A stretch of 40,607 nucleotides of DNA from a virus. Shown piece by piece: positions 264 to 39,270 of this stretch; positions within the stretch are counted from its first letter, which is position 1, and every line of letters starts with the position of its first letter. Position numbers and translations under genes: made by a program. Under the pieces are notes generated by a model that searched no databases, had not been told where the DNA came from, and saw only the letters and a list, made by a program, of their open reading frames with translations. Where the stretch lies: the IMG/VR virus record IMGVR_UViG_3300033553_000657, positions 1 through 40,607 of that record; one strand, 5' to 3'.

Positions 264-1421
264 ATGGCTTCCGCTAAAGTGTTCATAAACAGTAATTCGG
301 TCAAAAAAAATGGCGAAGCAACGGTGTACCTGATAGTGCATTTGGGTTACAAATCGCTGAAATTCCACACTGGGGTTAGTTGTTTGCCGGATGATTTCAA
401 TGAAAAAACGTTGCGGATCAAGGGGAAATCGCAAAAAGTGAAGGATGACAACCTTATAATAGAAAAGTCGCTGGCATTGATGAACGATATTTTTGTGCGC
501 TACCGGCTGCAACACATCCAGCTCACGCCCGAAGCTTTGAAAAACGAATGGAAAAACCCTGCCAGGCGGATTGATTTCTACGCTTTTTTTGACGAAGCGA
601 TCAACGAGAGGAAAAAGGAAATCAGGAAGCAGACGTGGAAAAACCACAACTCGGAAATCAACAAGCTGAAATTGTACAGGCCGAAGCTGGCGTTTGCTGA
701 TTTTTCGGCCGATTTTCTGGACAGTTATAAGCGCTGGCTGAAAACGGAGCGGAAAAACGACATCAACTCGGTGTTCACATCGATGAAAGTGCTGAAGACT
801 TATATTAATATCGCAATCAAAAAAGGGATAATCACAGAAAACCCTTTCAACAATGTGCGGACCAAGCAAACAACTCCTGAAATGGTTTTCCTATCGCCTG
901 AAGAGCTGAAGCGGATGTGGGAGCTGTACAAAGAAAATCGATTGCTGCCTGGGCAAATGAAGGTTTTGAGACACTTCCTTTTTATGTGCTTCACGGGTTG
1001 CAGGATTTCGGATTTTATTGCCATGAACAAGTTCAACGTGAACAATAACCTGCTGATATATTACCCTATTAAAACCAAAGGCATCAAAAAAACACCGGTA
1101 AAAGTTCCGCTCACGAAATACGCGTTGCAATTGATTTCTGACGAAAATAGCGACGATGACAGGCTATTCCATCCCATTACGGAGCAGAAAATGAATGTTG
1201 CGATCAAGAAAATTGCTGCTGAAGCTGAGTGTTACAAACCGCTGACCAACCACAGCGCACGGCACACATTTGCAACTACCTGGCTGGCCACCATGCACGA
1301 TTTGGCAGCGTTGCAGAAATTACTTGGCCACAGTAAAATAACCGACACGATGAAATATGTGCATGTGACAGATGAAATGTTGATTGAGCAGATGGGGAGA
1401 TATGAGGAAAAATTGTTTTGA
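264..1421 (+). CDS. int: Tyrosine-type site-specific recombinase (phage integrase)
   Basis: A 385-aa tyrosine recombinase that would catalyse integration and excision of the prophage at the tRNA-Leu. The N-terminal ~95 residues look like the arm-binding domain, followed by a SAM-like core-binding domain (about 105-200) and the catalytic domain. Catalytic residues are visible: Arg247 in TGCRISD, His330 and Arg333 in HSARH, His356 in LLGHS and nucleophile Tyr365 in MKYVHV. Length and order fit the Bacteroidota integrases of prophages and integrative elements. It is the only clear + strand gene and points inward from the tRNA. Three short direct repeats precede its start. No excisionase is recognised nearby. 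Confidence 0.93.
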   Translation: MASAKVFINSNSVKKNGEATVYLIVHLGYKSLKFHTGVSCLPDDFNEKTLRIKGKSQKVKDDNLIIEKSLALMNDIFVRYRLQHIQLTPEALKNEWKNPARRIDFYAFFDEAINERKKEIRKQTWKNHNSEINKLKLYRPKLAFADFSADFLDSYKRWLKTERKNDINSVFTSMKVLKTYINIAIKKGIITENPFNNVRTKQTTPEMVFLSPEELKRMWELYKENRLLPGQMKVLRHFLFMCFTGCRISDFIAMNKFNVNNNLLIYYPIKTKGIKKTPVKVPLTKYALQLISDENSDDDRLFHPITEQKMNVAIKKIAAEAECYKPLTNHSARHTFATTWLATMHDLAALQKLLGHSKITDTMKYVHVTDEMLIEQMGRYEEKLF

Positions 1422-31611: not shown

Positions 31612-31717
31612 GATAATAAATATTACGGTTTAATATTTTACCATTTGCTGGTATTTCAAACAGTGGTGTGTTGAAAAATAAAAAAACAGATAGAGTTGGC
31701 CACGATTTTACTGTTTT

Positions 31718-31934
31718 GCTTACTTCGCTTACTTCGCAGGGGTTAACTGTCATTATGTCAGAGTGTTAAATGTGAGGTAATAAAGAAAATGATGTTGTAA
31801 ATTTTTGAGAAAAAAAGTAAGCGAAGTAACTAAAAGTAACTTGTAGTAAGCCAATAACATTATTTATGTTCAGTTAATTGTTTGTAATACAGTATATTAT
31901 AGTAAAAAAAGTAAGAGAAGTAAGCGAAGTAAGC
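31718..31934. repeat. Three clusters of 9-bp iterons (GAAGTAAGC); candidate replication origin
   Basis: Cluster 1, inverted: GCTTACTTC at 31718-31726 and 31727-31735. Cluster 2, direct and looser: AAAGTAAGC (31814-31822), GAAGTAACT (31823-31831), AAAGTAACT (31833-31841), GTAGTAAGC (31843-31851). Cluster 3, direct: AAAGTAAGA (31908-31916), GAAGTAAGC (31917-31925) and GAAGTAAGC (31926-31934). AT-rich DNA lies between clusters 2 and 3. No gene is visible from 31574 to 32266 on the - strand. Iterons plus AT-rich DNA near a primase are the usual features of a phage origin. Confidence 0.65.
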
Positions 31935-32059
31935 ACTTTTAAATATAAATAACGTCATTCGCATTTTTTCGCTCAACTCCATTTTTGATGTGTTTTTTCT
32001 GGCGGGGGGTGTAAGGGGGGTTTGCGATTTGCGAAATACTTGCTGCTCTTATTTTTATA

Positions 32060-32081
32060 TATAACTAAATTTTTAGTTATA
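32060..32081. promoter_or_regulatory. 22-bp palindrome, operator-like
   Basis: TATAACTAAA (32060-32069), TT, TTTAGTTATA (32072-32081): perfect 10-bp arms. A + strand promoter-like TACCTTCG follows at about 32095-32102. It is suitable as a dimeric regulator site. Confidence 0.5.
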
Positions 32082-32115
32082 CACTTTTTGAATGCTACCT
32101 TCGCAAATAAAAAAA

Positions 32116-33266: not shown

Positions 33267-33785
33267 TTAAAAATGATGTGTATAAAATTCTGTTGAGCTC
33301 TTAAATCCCTTTTGAAGTTCAATAATTACGGTTTGAATTCGAGCATATTGGAATGTTTTACGAGGCAATGGAGTCAATGACTTTATTCCAAAATCTCTTA
33401 AATACCGCATCCTAACGTCGCTATCTGATATCGTAAACCAAGGCATTAAAGCGATTATACAGTCGCTCATTTGCATGCATTCTTTAAGAATATAATATCC
33501 CAATTTCATTCCCCGAATTTCAACATCTTCGGGGGCATGCTCCATGTGCGCTGATTTTGACGAGAACGGTGGATTCATAACAATACAGTCGAATCGTTGT
33601 TTTGTATCAAACACGAAAAAATCGTCTGCAGCAATGATCTGATATCTATTTTTAGCCTCTAATGCTTGAACCAAATTTCCAATCCCAGGAGTAGGTTCTA
33701 AAATTGTTTTTGCAGAATCAGGTACCAGCCCGGCCATATAGTCACAAACTGAAGGCGGTGTTTGAAAATTGGTATCTATAATCAT
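33267..33785 (-). CDS. DNA adenine methyltransferase-like protein
   Basis: A 172-aa AdoMet-dependent methyltransferase fold. Motif I is LEPTPGIGNLVQAL (about 29-42), an acidic strand end follows at AADDFF, and catalytic motif IV is NPPF (71-74) in DCIVMNPPFSSK. The late strand TVIIELQKG completes the fold. There is no separate target-recognition domain, so it is a small orphan form such as phages use to mask their DNA or mark replication. It overlaps the upstream gene by 4 bp. Confidence 0.82.
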   Translation of the reverse strand: MIIDTNFQTPPSVCDYMAGLVPDSAKTILEPTPGIGNLVQALEAKNRYQIIAADDFFVFDTKQRFDCIVMNPPFSSKSAHMEHAPEDVEIRGMKLGYYILKECMQMSDCIIALMPWFTISDSDVRMRYLRDFGIKSLTPLPRKTFQYARIQTVIIELQKGFKSSTEFYTHHF

Positions 33786-34209: not shown

Positions 34210-37200
34210 TTAAAAAGGTAATTCATCATCATCATCCGAACCATCCGTATTTTTGTTTTCGAATTTTACTTCTTGCTGTTTTGCCACCGGATTTTCAATC
34301 GGTTTGGCTTCTTCAGTAGTTTCCTGGTATCCGTCCGGATCGCCCGATTCTATGGAGATGTTCAGCAGCGCATAATCGAATACAAGGGCAGTCGTGCTTG
34401 TGCGTTTCTTGCCGATCGATTGTTCTACTCCGCTCACAATGCCCATTTGCGATTCCTGGTGCCCTGTTTTGGGGTCGATTTTCTTAAACGATTCTTTCTT
34501 GGTTTCGAAAAGGAATGCTTTTGAGTTCTTCAGGTAGTATTCAATAGTGGCTTCCGGCAGCGGTTTATCGCCTTCGCGCAGGCATTGGCTTTTATAAATC
34601 GAGAACACACGGCTTGTGGTGAGGTAAAACAATTGTTTGGGTTCCAGGTACTGTATTTTATCGCTTTTCCATTGTCCACCATCCATGTACCGGCGCGTAA
34701 CATGATCGGCATATACAAATTTATAATCTCCATCCTCAAAAATAAGGTTCGAGCCGGCCAGGTATCCAACAATTTTCCAGAAGTGGCCAAGGTCGTCGTT
34801 CTTTTTCATTTCGCCGTTTTGGCGAAGCATAAGGTCAACGGCAAGCTGCATGGTTTCGGTATAATCCCATGGCAGTTCAATTTCATCATCGAGCGTGGCG
34901 TATGCCGACATGATCATCAGCCAGTTGTTAAATACGCGGGTCTCAACGGACTGGCCTTTTAAAAGTTGCTCCAGCTTCAGCGAAACTTCATCTACCTTCT
35001 TCGAATAATTGTCTTTGAAAAACGGCCGGTGCTTCAGTATCTGGTGGGTAATGTGTGTTAGCCCGCGTTTATTTATTTCTTCCAGTTCCTCGTAAAGCCT
35101 TATTTCTTCCTTGCTGAATTCAGTTTGAGTGAACGATAGCACTACGAAGCGTGAAAACAGGGCGATATCAGCCGTCGCCATTTGCTGGCCACAAACAATC
35201 ACTCCCTGGTCAACCGACGTTGTTTCTTTCTTTTTGTCCTTGTCCATGTTCATCCGGGTGCGACCGGTTCCATCCCACAATCCCTTCAAAAACTCCCGCT
35301 TCTCCATTTCCAAATCGTTCCGGTATTCGTCCAACACACAAAGCGCATTAGAACTGGTGGCCACATGATCGGCTAACGCAGGTTTCGAAGTATTGTGCAG
35401 GTTCGGGATTTTAGGCAACCGACCAAAGAAATGAAGCAGCGATTCAGCACAGGCATTTTTACCGGCTCCTTTTGGCCCAAACAGGTTCAGTACCGGGTAC
35501 TTTGAAAACTTCCGGATAATGATGTCGCGGAACAGGCTGGCAAAGTAGTAACTGAGCGCAATTTTACCGTTGTCGCCAAACACCTTGGTAAATTTCTTCA
35601 TGTACTCCCGGAGCGATATGTTTCCTTCCACATGAATAAATTTTCGTTCAAATTCGAAAAGGTTTTCTTCTCCGGCGTAAATCCTCGATGCCGATGGGAT
35701 ATAGTAATTTTCTCCACCGTGGGCAGCAATTCCATAGCTGTCGGTTTCGGTAAATTTGCCATTGTAAATTCCATTTCCCCACACATAAATTCCATCCTTG
35801 TTCCAGCCCATTTGTGTAACCTCTTTGGCCGAGTTTGTTTTTTCGTACAGCCACGATTTTAAACGGTTCAGGTCGGTTTCCGATCCTGTCCACAGGAAGT
35901 TCCCCAGGCTTTCAATCCTAACTTTAAATGCCGATATCGATACAAGGTCGCGTTGCGGGATCTCGATTACACGAACCGTTCCGTGATTGTTCTTTACCTC
36001 GTACAAACGCTTTGCATTTACTGTGCTCTCGATATGAAAAAGCGGGGTCATCGTGAAATTGCTTTGCTGTTTCGGATGCCCTTTTGTATCCTGAAAATAC
36101 ATGCAGTTGTGATCGACATAGAATCCTCGTTCGTAATATTCATCGAGCGACACGGTTGCCGGGATTGCCCTCGACTTCTTTGTCTCAACCGGAGCTTTAT
36201 CGGCCAGCCAATTCTTGAAGTGGTCCTGCCAAAGTTTTTTGGGCCCTATAATCTTTGCAATTTCATCCAAATAAACTTCGTGTTTCGATGGCTCGTCGTA
36301 CCTGGTAATCAGGAATGAAATCTCCTTAATTAAATCAGCCTTATATGCCGGGTTCTGGCTCTTTTCGGCTACGCCTGCCGTTTTCCATATAATATAATCT
36401 ACCTGTTTGTTGTTGGCTCTTTCAAAGGCTTCGAGTGTTGGGAAAGCTGTATCCGGATCTTCCTTCTCCGGGAGTATTATAACCGAAACGTGGAATTGCT
36501 CCCTAATCAGTATTTCCGCATTTTTCGACATCGCCTTTTGCCCGGCCGAATCGCCATCGTAAATCAGCGTTACCTTATTTGTATATTGCTTCAGCAGCTT
36601 CGCCTGTTCAATTGTCAAAGCAGTTCCGCAGGGCGCGAGGGTATTTATTATTCCGATCTGGTGCAACCGGGCCACGTCAAAATTTCCTTCAACTAAGTAC
36701 GCTTTATCTTCCTTCTTAATTTCGTTACGTGCCAGGTTTAAAGCAAACAACTCATTCCCCTTGCAATAAATTGGGGTGTCGCCGGTATTCAGGTATTTCG
36801 GTATGTTTTTGTCAGTACTCAGCGTGCGACCAGTAAACCCGATTACCTTACCGGCTTTATTGCAAATCGGGAATATGATCCTGTTTCTGAAAGTATCATA
36901 CTCGCGGCCATCTTTCGATTTGATCAGATCGGCTTCTATGAGTAAATTCAGGTTTATCGCTTCTTTTTTTGCCCATTGCAGCAGCATGTTTCCATCAGGG
37001 GCATACCCGAGCATAAACGGAATAACGTTGTTTTCGCGCACAACACCTTCAACTATCTCCGGTACCGGTTCAGGTTCGCTTTCGGCTTGCCGGTGCTGCA
37101 AATCCAGCGCATATTCAAGTGCATCTATATCGGCTAAAAGAACTTTCCGGCCTTTATAACCGTCATTCGGGCCAACAACTCCAGCAACTTCAAGCTGATC

Positions 37201-37824
37201 TATTATTTTTCCTGCCCGGTTATACCCAAGTTTCATCTTTCGCTGAAGGTTCGATACAGAAGCATTTTGCTCGATAATTACGATTTCAGCAGCATCACGA
37301 AACAATGGATCTATTTCTACCGGCTTTGCTTCTACCGGCTTAGCAACAGGCTCTTTTACTTTTGCCGGTTCTGTCCAGGTTTCCGATATCGGGTCGAAGC
37401 CACGATCCTTGAGATATTTTATACCTGATGGGAATTGTTGCTTTAGCCACTCGTTATAAAATTCAGCAGCTTTTTGGCAAACAATCCGGAGCGATTCTTT
37501 GTGCTTATATTCATCGTCGTTAAAGTTCGATTTGTCGGTTATCCACTGGAAATCAAGATTCAGCTTTTTGGCCCCAATTTGCAACGCTTCTTTAAAGTCG
37601 ACACCTTCATGATCCTGGATAAAACCTACGGCATCGCCACCTTTTCCGCAGCCAAAACACTTATAAATTCCCCGGGCTGGAGTAACTGTAAACGATGGGG
37701 TTTTTTCGTTGTGAAACGGGCAACAAGCTCTGTATTTATTGCCGATTGTCTTCAATTCAACGTAATTGCCTACAATCTCGGTAATATCTTCATTTATGCG
37801 GTCGATTACTTCGCGTACGTCCAT
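34210..37824 (-). CDS. DNA primase-helicase with an inserted FtsK-gamma winged-helix domain
   Basis: A 1204-aa replication protein. Domains in order: CHC2 zinc finger with Cys35, His38, Cys56, Cys59; start of the DnaG-type core (to about 148, GIKYLKDRGFDP); a Lys/Pro/Glu linker; an FtsK-gamma domain at about 171-236 (DPLFRDAAEIVIIEQ, VSNLQRKMKLGYNRAGKIID, LEVAGVVGPNDGYKGRKVL); a second linker; resumption of the primase core at about 265 (MLGYAPDGNM); Toprim at about 374-455 with Glu379, Asp423 and Asp425 in IYDGDSAG; a linker; and a P-loop domain with GPKGAGKN (783-790) and DEY (832-834). It primes and unwinds at the fork. The gamma insertion is odd; see findings. Confidence 0.9.
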   Translation of the reverse strand: MDVREVIDRINEDITEIVGNYVELKTIGNKYRACCPFHNEKTPSFTVTPARGIYKCFGCGKGGDAVGFIQDHEGVDFKEALQIGAKKLNLDFQWITDKSNFNDDEYKHKESLRIVCQKAAEFYNEWLKQQFPSGIKYLKDRGFDPISETWTEPAKVKEPVAKPVEAKPVEIDPLFRDAAEIVIIEQNASVSNLQRKMKLGYNRAGKIIDQLEVAGVVGPNDGYKGRKVLLADIDALEYALDLQHRQAESEPEPVPEIVEGVVRENNVIPFMLGYAPDGNMLLQWAKKEAINLNLLIEADLIKSKDGREYDTFRNRIIFPICNKAGKVIGFTGRTLSTDKNIPKYLNTGDTPIYCKGNELFALNLARNEIKKEDKAYLVEGNFDVARLHQIGIINTLAPCGTALTIEQAKLLKQYTNKVTLIYDGDSAGQKAMSKNAEILIREQFHVSVIILPEKEDPDTAFPTLEAFERANNKQVDYIIWKTAGVAEKSQNPAYKADLIKEISFLITRYDEPSKHEVYLDEIAKIIGPKKLWQDHFKNWLADKAPVETKKSRAIPATVSLDEYYERGFYVDHNCMYFQDTKGHPKQQSNFTMTPLFHIESTVNAKRLYEVKNNHGTVRVIEIPQRDLVSISAFKVRIESLGNFLWTGSETDLNRLKSWLYEKTNSAKEVTQMGWNKDGIYVWGNGIYNGKFTETDSYGIAAHGGENYYIPSASRIYAGEENLFEFERKFIHVEGNISLREYMKKFTKVFGDNGKIALSYYFASLFRDIIIRKFSKYPVLNLFGPKGAGKNACAESLLHFFGRLPKIPNLHNTSKPALADHVATSSNALCVLDEYRNDLEMEKREFLKGLWDGTGRTRMNMDKDKKKETTSVDQGVIVCGQQMATADIALFSRFVVLSFTQTEFSKEEIRLYEELEEINKRGLTHITHQILKHRPFFKDNYSKKVDEVSLKLEQLLKGQSVETRVFNNWLMIMSAYATLDDEIELPWDYTETMQLAVDLMLRQNGEMKKNDDLGHFWKIVGYLAGSNLIFEDGDYKFVYADHVTRRYMDGGQWKSDKIQYLEPKQLFYLTTSRVFSIYKSQCLREGDKPLPEATIEYYLKNSKAFLFETKKESFKKIDPKTGHQESQMGIVSGVEQSIGKKRTSTTALVFDYALLNISIESGDPDGYQETTEEAKPIENPVAKQQEVKFENKNTDGSDDDDELPF

Positions 37825-38604: not shown

Positions 38605-39270
38605 TTAAGGTATTAAGTTTGGATTTTCTGGATATATCTTTAGATTTTCGGGATTTCCTTCGGTTGAAAGCACTTCGAATTTTATGACCCAAACCCACGG
38701 TTTTTTTTTCCAGGATTGTTCTCCGTTAATACTTTCCCAAATACATTGGAATGCGCGTGCAGCTTTTGAGTAAGCTCTATATGTCATTGCTCCGCCAGAT
38801 GGGTGTTTTGAACCCGCATATTCACCAAACGGACCATATTTGAAACATCCTTCAGCAATAGCATCCTCCTCCGAAATATCCTGCAACCTTTCCACTTTTA
38901 CCTCCGTAATTTCGAGCCAAACGCGGGCTGCGGCCTTGGGCATGTGGATGGATGGTTTCCACCCCTGAGAAGCATGTCTCGTTTCAAAATTACCCGGATT
39001 GAAATTTGCTTTGTAATAATAATCATCTTCAAACCCATCAAATAAAGATGGAAAACAAAATGTTTCCCTCACCCAAAGCAAATCGCCGGGCTGTCCGTAT
39101 GGGCAAGTAACACTACGATCTACTTTTTGAGAAATGCCATTTACATTTACATCGGTTAGCTCTGAATGTGACCAGTGTTGATGTTTGCAAATTCGCCTGG
39201 TCTGCGTTTTTCTTCCTTCCAAAATGGCTTGCACCATTGGGGTGGAGAATAAAATCGGGTGTTCTTTCAT
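38605..39270 (-). CDS. ASCH-like domain phage protein
   Basis: A 221-aa product. The N-terminus ILFSTPMVQAILEGRKTQTRR and the later YGQPGDLLWVRETF are signature parts of the ASCH-like phage proteins (F-S-x-x-M-x-x-A-I-L-x-G-x-K-T-x-T-R-R; P-G-D-x-L-W-V-R-E). ITEVKVERLQDISEEDAIAEG is also typical. The fold is PUA-like and bound to RNA or modified nucleobases; the exact role in phages is unknown. It is a complete copy in the early region. Confidence 0.85.
   Translation of the reverse strand: MKEHPILFSTPMVQAILEGRKTQTRRICKHQHWSHSELTDVNVNGISQKVDRSVTCPYGQPGDLLWVRETFCFPSLFDGFEDDYYYKANFNPGNFETRHASQGWKPSIHMPKAAARVWLEITEVKVERLQDISEEDAIAEGCFKYGPFGEYAGSKHPSGGAMTYRAYSKAARAFQCIWESINGEQSWKKKPWVWVIKFEVLSTEGNPENLKIYPENPNLIP

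Follow-up and report, generated by a model that had tools for sequence, protein, structure and literature searches.

KOPS are dispersed, oriented motifs and are not terminus-specific. Helices 2 and 3 of Escherichia coli FtsK touch both KOPS DNA and XerD with their ends, and residues 1289–1297 alone suffice to stimulate Xer recombination (PMC5052618). Phage proteins can carry the same kind of domain: in the Bacillus phages Sam46 and Sam112, the small terminase has an N-terminal FtsK_gamma domain (PMC8190038). The alpha protein of phage P4 is a primase-helicase whose winged helix reads origin repeats (PMC4234260). Here we describe a phage protein that resembles each of these systems in part, a DnaG-type primase with an FtsK gamma domain inserted in its catalytic core.

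The gene lies in a 40,607-nucleotide stretch of viral DNA (IMG/VR record IMGVR_UViG_3300033553_000657, positions 1 to 40,607; hereafter, the window) that belongs to a temperate tailed phage, with a tyrosine integrase (264–1421, plus strand), tape measure, portal, terminase and head protease. Its features are as follows.

34210–37824, minus strand: uninterrupted open reading frame of 1204 amino acids encoding a DnaG-type primase that has the inserted gamma domain and, at its C terminus, a P-loop region (probable helicase) (open reading frame, Pfam, NCBIfam)
37546–37809, minus strand: DnaG zinc ribbon, residues 6–93 (Pfam PF01807 Zn_ribbon_DnaG, 2.6e-32)
37321–37389, minus strand: N-terminal linker of the insert, residues 146–168 (alignments)
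37135–37314, minus strand: FtsK gamma winged-helix domain, residues 171–230 (Pfam PF09397; AF2 and Foldseek)
37027–37128, minus strand: C-terminal linker of the insert, residues 233–266 (alignments)
36730–37035, minus strand: rest of the N-terminal subdomain of the DnaG catalytic core, residues 264–365 (Pfam PF08275 DNAG_N, 6.8e-27)
36448–36705, minus strand: Toprim domain, residues 374–459 (Pfam PF13155/PF13662; Toprim_2 match at 376–459)
35455–35478, minus strand: P-loop GPKGAGKN, residues 783–790, in the C-terminal ATPase/helicase-like region (sequence; P-loops aligned in relatives)

Zinc ribbon, DNAG_N and Toprim, the domains shared with the DnaG-type primases of Aquifex (2AU3) and E. coli (1DD9, 3B39), are all present, and the protein scores 361.5 bits against the NCBIfam dnaG model TIGR01391 (cut-off 283.6). 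What distinguishes it from these enzymes is that the catalytic core is not continuous, being broken between residues 145 and 270. The DNAG_N match starts only at position 25 of the 128 in the profile, and the alignment to Aquifex DnaG ends at residue 145 (chain position 137) and restarts at residue 270 (chain position 143), so that gamma with its linkers, some 124–125 amino acids, takes the place of 5 residues in a surface loop of the N-terminal subdomain. A further difference is the P-loop region that follows in the same chain. Compared with a P4 alpha-like helicase motor, this region has a P-loop and a conserved acidic motif; sequence searches matched it to no helicase family and to no solved protein, and we therefore infer, rather than assign by homology, the label 'helicase'. 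The P-loop of the window protein and of its nearest kin has N in place of S or T after GK; most of the distantly related primases show GKT or GKS. Neither Pfam nor NCBIfam matches an FtsK motor anywhere in the primase, which thus does not qualify as an FtsK/SpoIIIE translocase.

A preliminary description of this locus had placed an FtsK gamma winged helix within the primase, and both profile and structure comparisons bear this out. Residues 171–230 match FtsK_gamma with an E-value of 1.6e-23 (82.6 bits, cut-off 30.6), and a search of the virus record itself returned the same coordinates at 88.2 bits, as the sole gamma in the 40.6-kb record. AlphaFold predicts a winged helix for residues 160–245 (22 sequences, mean pLDDT 87.5). 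With this model, all 13 of the PDB matches at E ≤ 0.001 in Foldseek are FtsK gamma structures (rmsd 0.8–1.8 Å, TM by target 0.77–0.92), led by 2VE8, 2VE9 and 2J5P (E ~1e-5; for the best hits, rmsd 0.8–1.4 Å and TM by target 0.82–0.92), of which 2VE9 is the KOPS-bound form. The primase copy therefore has in common with the FtsK/SpoIIIE gamma its sequence, its fold and most DNA-contact positions; it differs in lying mid-protein, tethered at both ends and with no FtsK motor, and in having K at the R1300 position and Y for S at one wing position.

In a model of residues 1–530 (pLDDT 86.6, pTM 0.66), an ordinary DnaG core, with 2AU3 as its best structural match (E = 1.6e-30), is accompanied by a separately folded gamma. 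The two linkers are flexible, with segments 156–167 and 249–257 having pLDDT below 50 in this model. Together with the break in the 2AU3 alignment, the model agrees with the earlier proposal of a gamma inside the primase core with a linker at either end. Short strands at 149–151 and 262–264, for which the DSSP line is our sole source, may close both ends of the insert.

Relatives of the primase were collected from IMG/VR in two overlapping sets of 44 and 80 loci. Apart from the window, just three distinct sequences have an in-frame gamma: L001 (identical to L009), L003 (identical to L004 and L006) and L002 (identical to L008). These other primases with the insertion carry it at the same position and with the same N-terminal linker, whose motif, FDPxSxTWTEPxK, is common to all four distinct carriers. 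Because the three additional coding sequences are distinct and lie on other contigs, the insertion is not an assembly artefact, and the shared linker speaks for a single insertion event. Gamma is absent from the primases of L005, L007, L031, L010, L011 and the distant relatives. Among the 44 relatives checked, the distant primases show no sign of other domains at the gamma loop, and in every case where the zinc ribbon and the Toprim VEG motif could both be located, the distance between them is normal. No gamma was found elsewhere in the records of the gamma-less relatives, which may be fragments.

One gamma-less primase, that of L005, is 84–85% identical to the window primase and aligns to 2AU3 without a break, with just 7 additional residues at the insertion place. 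In a tree of the primase minus the insert, whose forks are weakly resolved, L005 falls among the carriers, and the carriers form one clade in none of 200 bootstrap trees. A close relative nested among carriers thus does without the module, which shows that gamma is dispensable to this primase lineage. The extra DNNN.IPF residues of L005 resemble the end of the carriers' C-terminal linker and may be the footprint of a loss.

The best cellular matches of the phage gamma among 84,980 species genomes are FtsK proteins of Bacteroidota (Emticicia, Lacihabitans, Pedobacter and Flavobacteriaceae), whose aligned gammas are 56–71% identical to that of the window. Plasmids yielded distant primases only. 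A search of 395 Bacteroidota genomes for prophage relatives turned up a single distant full-length case (G178), so the host phylum, probably Bacteroidota, is deduced from the kinship of gamma together with the hosts of phages that are distantly related. Third-position GC in the window is 0.30 in the insert (64 codons) and 0.53 in the rest of the gene, a difference compatible with a foreign origin. In one carrier pair, L001 and L003, gamma is under purifying selection, its dN/dS of 0.061 being similar to that of the primase around it (0.057 in the zinc ribbon, 0.036 in the core, 0.072 in the C-terminal part). When the window is compared with L001, dN is 0.32 in gamma against 0.08 in both the core and the C-terminal part; dS is close to saturation.

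We take N1296, R1300 and E1303 of E. coli FtsK to be KOPS base contacts. Aligned to that protein, the window gamma keeps most DNA-contact positions. N1296 and R1297 are retained in the window, L001 and L003, where R1300 is R or K and E1303 is D, as in Bacteroidota hosts; in L002, the contacts are for the most part no longer conserved. The stretch that carries the KOPS/XerD surface in FtsK is also recognizable.

37216–37242, minus strand: RKMKLGYNR, residues 195–203, equivalent of E. coli FtsK 1289–1297, the KOPS/XerD surface (alignment; PMC5052618)

This peptide is identical in several Bacteroidota FtsK proteins, and reads KKFSIGYNR in L001 and L003 (R1289K, R1292S) and RKFQIGVKR in L002. Conservation of the surface does not prove DNA binding, since the same surface contacts XerD (PMC5052618).

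Motif counts were made for the octamers of E. coli and Bacillus subtilis type. In the window, neither KOPS nor SRS is enriched (GGGNAGGG, 0 seen against 3.0 expected; GNGNAGGG, 9 against 10.9). GGGNAGGG is slightly above expectation in three other carriers (6 against 3.8, 6 against 2.2 and 4 against 1.2), and also in one gamma-less relative (5 against 1.8). De novo comparison of 6- to 8-mers revealed no carrier-specific words clearly above what other genome triples give; the triple of carriers came second among 56 at k = 6 and twelfth among 56 at k = 7, the two lengths that the null covers. No host KOPS could be derived from strand skew in two Flavobacteriaceae, for which there was little sequence and strand assignment was uncertain, and the literature searched contained no Bacteroidota KOPS. 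The KOPS/SRS of B. subtilis and Pseudomonas aeruginosa were likewise not found in the Sam46 and Sam112 genomes (PMC8190038).

Downstream of the primase gene, at a distance of about 2.1 kb, lies an origin-like block.

~31675–32093, unstranded: intergenic block with paired inverted GAAGTAAGC repeats and a G/C tract, origin-like (sequence; conservation in relatives)

Its repeats form inverted pairs about 190 bp apart, beside a CCCCCC..CACCCCCC tract. The block is approximately 75–84% identical in close relatives with or without gamma: it is kept in the carriers and in gamma-less L050 (the same as L005), and partly in gamma-less L059 (the same as L031), and so does not depend on gamma. Like P4 alpha, the phage protein unites a Toprim primase, a winged helix and, probably, a motor in a single chain; unlike in P4, the repeats here persist without gamma, in L050 and L059, rather than depending on the winged helix as those of a P4 alpha-like initiator would, and the winged helix differs in position and family. 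The GAAGTAAGC iterons were rejected as the gamma target of our main reading on account of this conservation. Of the earlier interpretation, then, the FtsK gamma, its insertion in the core and the linkers hold up, and the proposed targeting of the phage origin or its iterons is weakened.

Phages join gamma to other DNA-binding proteins as well. RdgC proteins with a C-terminal FtsK gamma are encoded on two phage contigs (L130:1927–3192 and L305:3963–5201), and many further IMG/VR gamma hits start with RdgC-like N termini; on another phage contig (L325:513–1295), an FtsK gamma is joined to a GapR-like DNA-binding domain. These proteins resemble the primase in that gamma is attached to a phage DNA-binding protein, and differ in that it lies outside the partner domain and the partners are unrelated to primase. 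Similarly, the Sam46/Sam112 small terminase is a phage DNA-processing protein with a host-type gamma (PMC8190038), but its gamma is fused to one end of a packaging protein instead of lying within the core of an enzyme. Among 36 viral loci found by gamma alignment, gamma occurs in a primase only in the known carriers, and a search of the openly available literature found no paper on a gamma inside a primase. The module and the enzyme are both known, but we found their arrangement only in this clade and did not find it described. A reading head from host chromosome segregation thus sits within the catalytic core of an enzyme of DNA replication.

The explanation we prefer, to which we would give an even chance, is that gamma is an accessory, host-derived tether to double-stranded DNA, with KOPS-type reading, that biases the place and orientation of the primase, origin choice lying elsewhere. 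Gamma would read a KOPS-class octamer much as in FtsK and would keep the primase, which by analogy is probably a ring, in a favored orientation on the duplex. It would supplement origin recognition, which another part, present also in the gamma-less relatives, would carry out; its target sites would be either a few sites in the phage DNA or host KOPS. DNA reading by the primase gamma, the effect on orientation and the formation of a ring are what we infer. The profile and fold matches, including that to KOPS-bound 2VE9, the retained contact positions and the kinship to Bacteroidota FtsK favor this explanation. So do the selection on gamma in L001 and L003, the absence of the domain from L005 and the repeat block, which is kept either way. 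Phages have also attached gamma more than once to proteins that process DNA, RdgC and GapR as well as the small terminase (PMC8190038). Against the accessory tether stand the motif counts, which gave no DNA target, the diverged contacts of L002, and the sharing of the surface with XerD. We consider doubtful a stronger version, in which the primase-helicase is sequence-directed and orientation-reading, gamma recognizing host-type KOPS octamers and placing the ring on the duplex in a set direction; if true, an FtsK-style loading device would have moved into a replisome protein.

Were gamma instead the origin reader, it would bind the GAAGTAAGC repeats or G-tract near 31.7–32.1 kb and load the primase-helicase in the manner of P4 alpha. 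The proximity of the block and the P4 precedent (PMC4234260) favor this, but conservation of the same repeats in gamma-less relatives, and their difference from known KOPS/SRS octamers, make it unlikely. Quite unlikely, too, is that gamma has the host chromosome as its target, either occupying KOPS in competition with FtsK and disturbing segregation or division, or conveying the primase to host DNA as the phage takes over. In its favor, the closest kin of gamma is the host FtsK gamma, KOPS-like motifs are not enriched in the phage genome, and the RdgC and GapR fusions are compatible with chromosome targeting; binding of host KOPS is hypothetical, however, the host sequence sampled yielded no Bacteroidota KOPS, and a primase would be an odd decoy vehicle. 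A passenger acquired by chance recombination and tolerated in a permissive loop would explain the close relative without gamma, the faster evolution of gamma than of its flanks between the window and other carriers, and the strongly diverged gamma of L002. The strong purifying selection between L001 and L003, the open frame in four distinct carriers and their common linker motif render this improbable. Least probable of all is an action on host Xer recombination, in which gamma recruits or activates XerD, for example in phage multimer resolution or near dif. The nine-residue XerD-activating peptide (PMC5052618), identical in the window and several Bacteroidota FtsK, would fit, but it is altered in L002 and in L001 and L003, even though the gamma of the latter pair is under selection, and the phage has its own integrase and so no obvious need of XerCD. 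A search of hosts for dif with the E. coli consensus gave no more hits than a reversed control. To return to the accessory tether, natural pairs with and without gamma, 84–85% identical, make the role of the domain directly testable. Together with the primase, the RdgC, GapR and terminase fusions suggest that FtsK gamma is a plug-in address reader to which phages return repeatedly.

Other gamma-bearing reading frames include one of more than 2500 amino acids (L304:2526–10202), in which an FtsK gamma near residue 826 is the only Pfam match within the first 1158 residues, and a stand-alone 93-amino-acid gamma (L095:13628–13906), in trans, 2.3 kb downstream from a distantly related primase. In the window, the primase gene is preceded by a 221-amino-acid frame (38608–39270) matching phrog_874 (unknown function; 3e-72) and followed downstream by a short DNA-methyltransferase-like frame (33267–33785, 172 amino acids).
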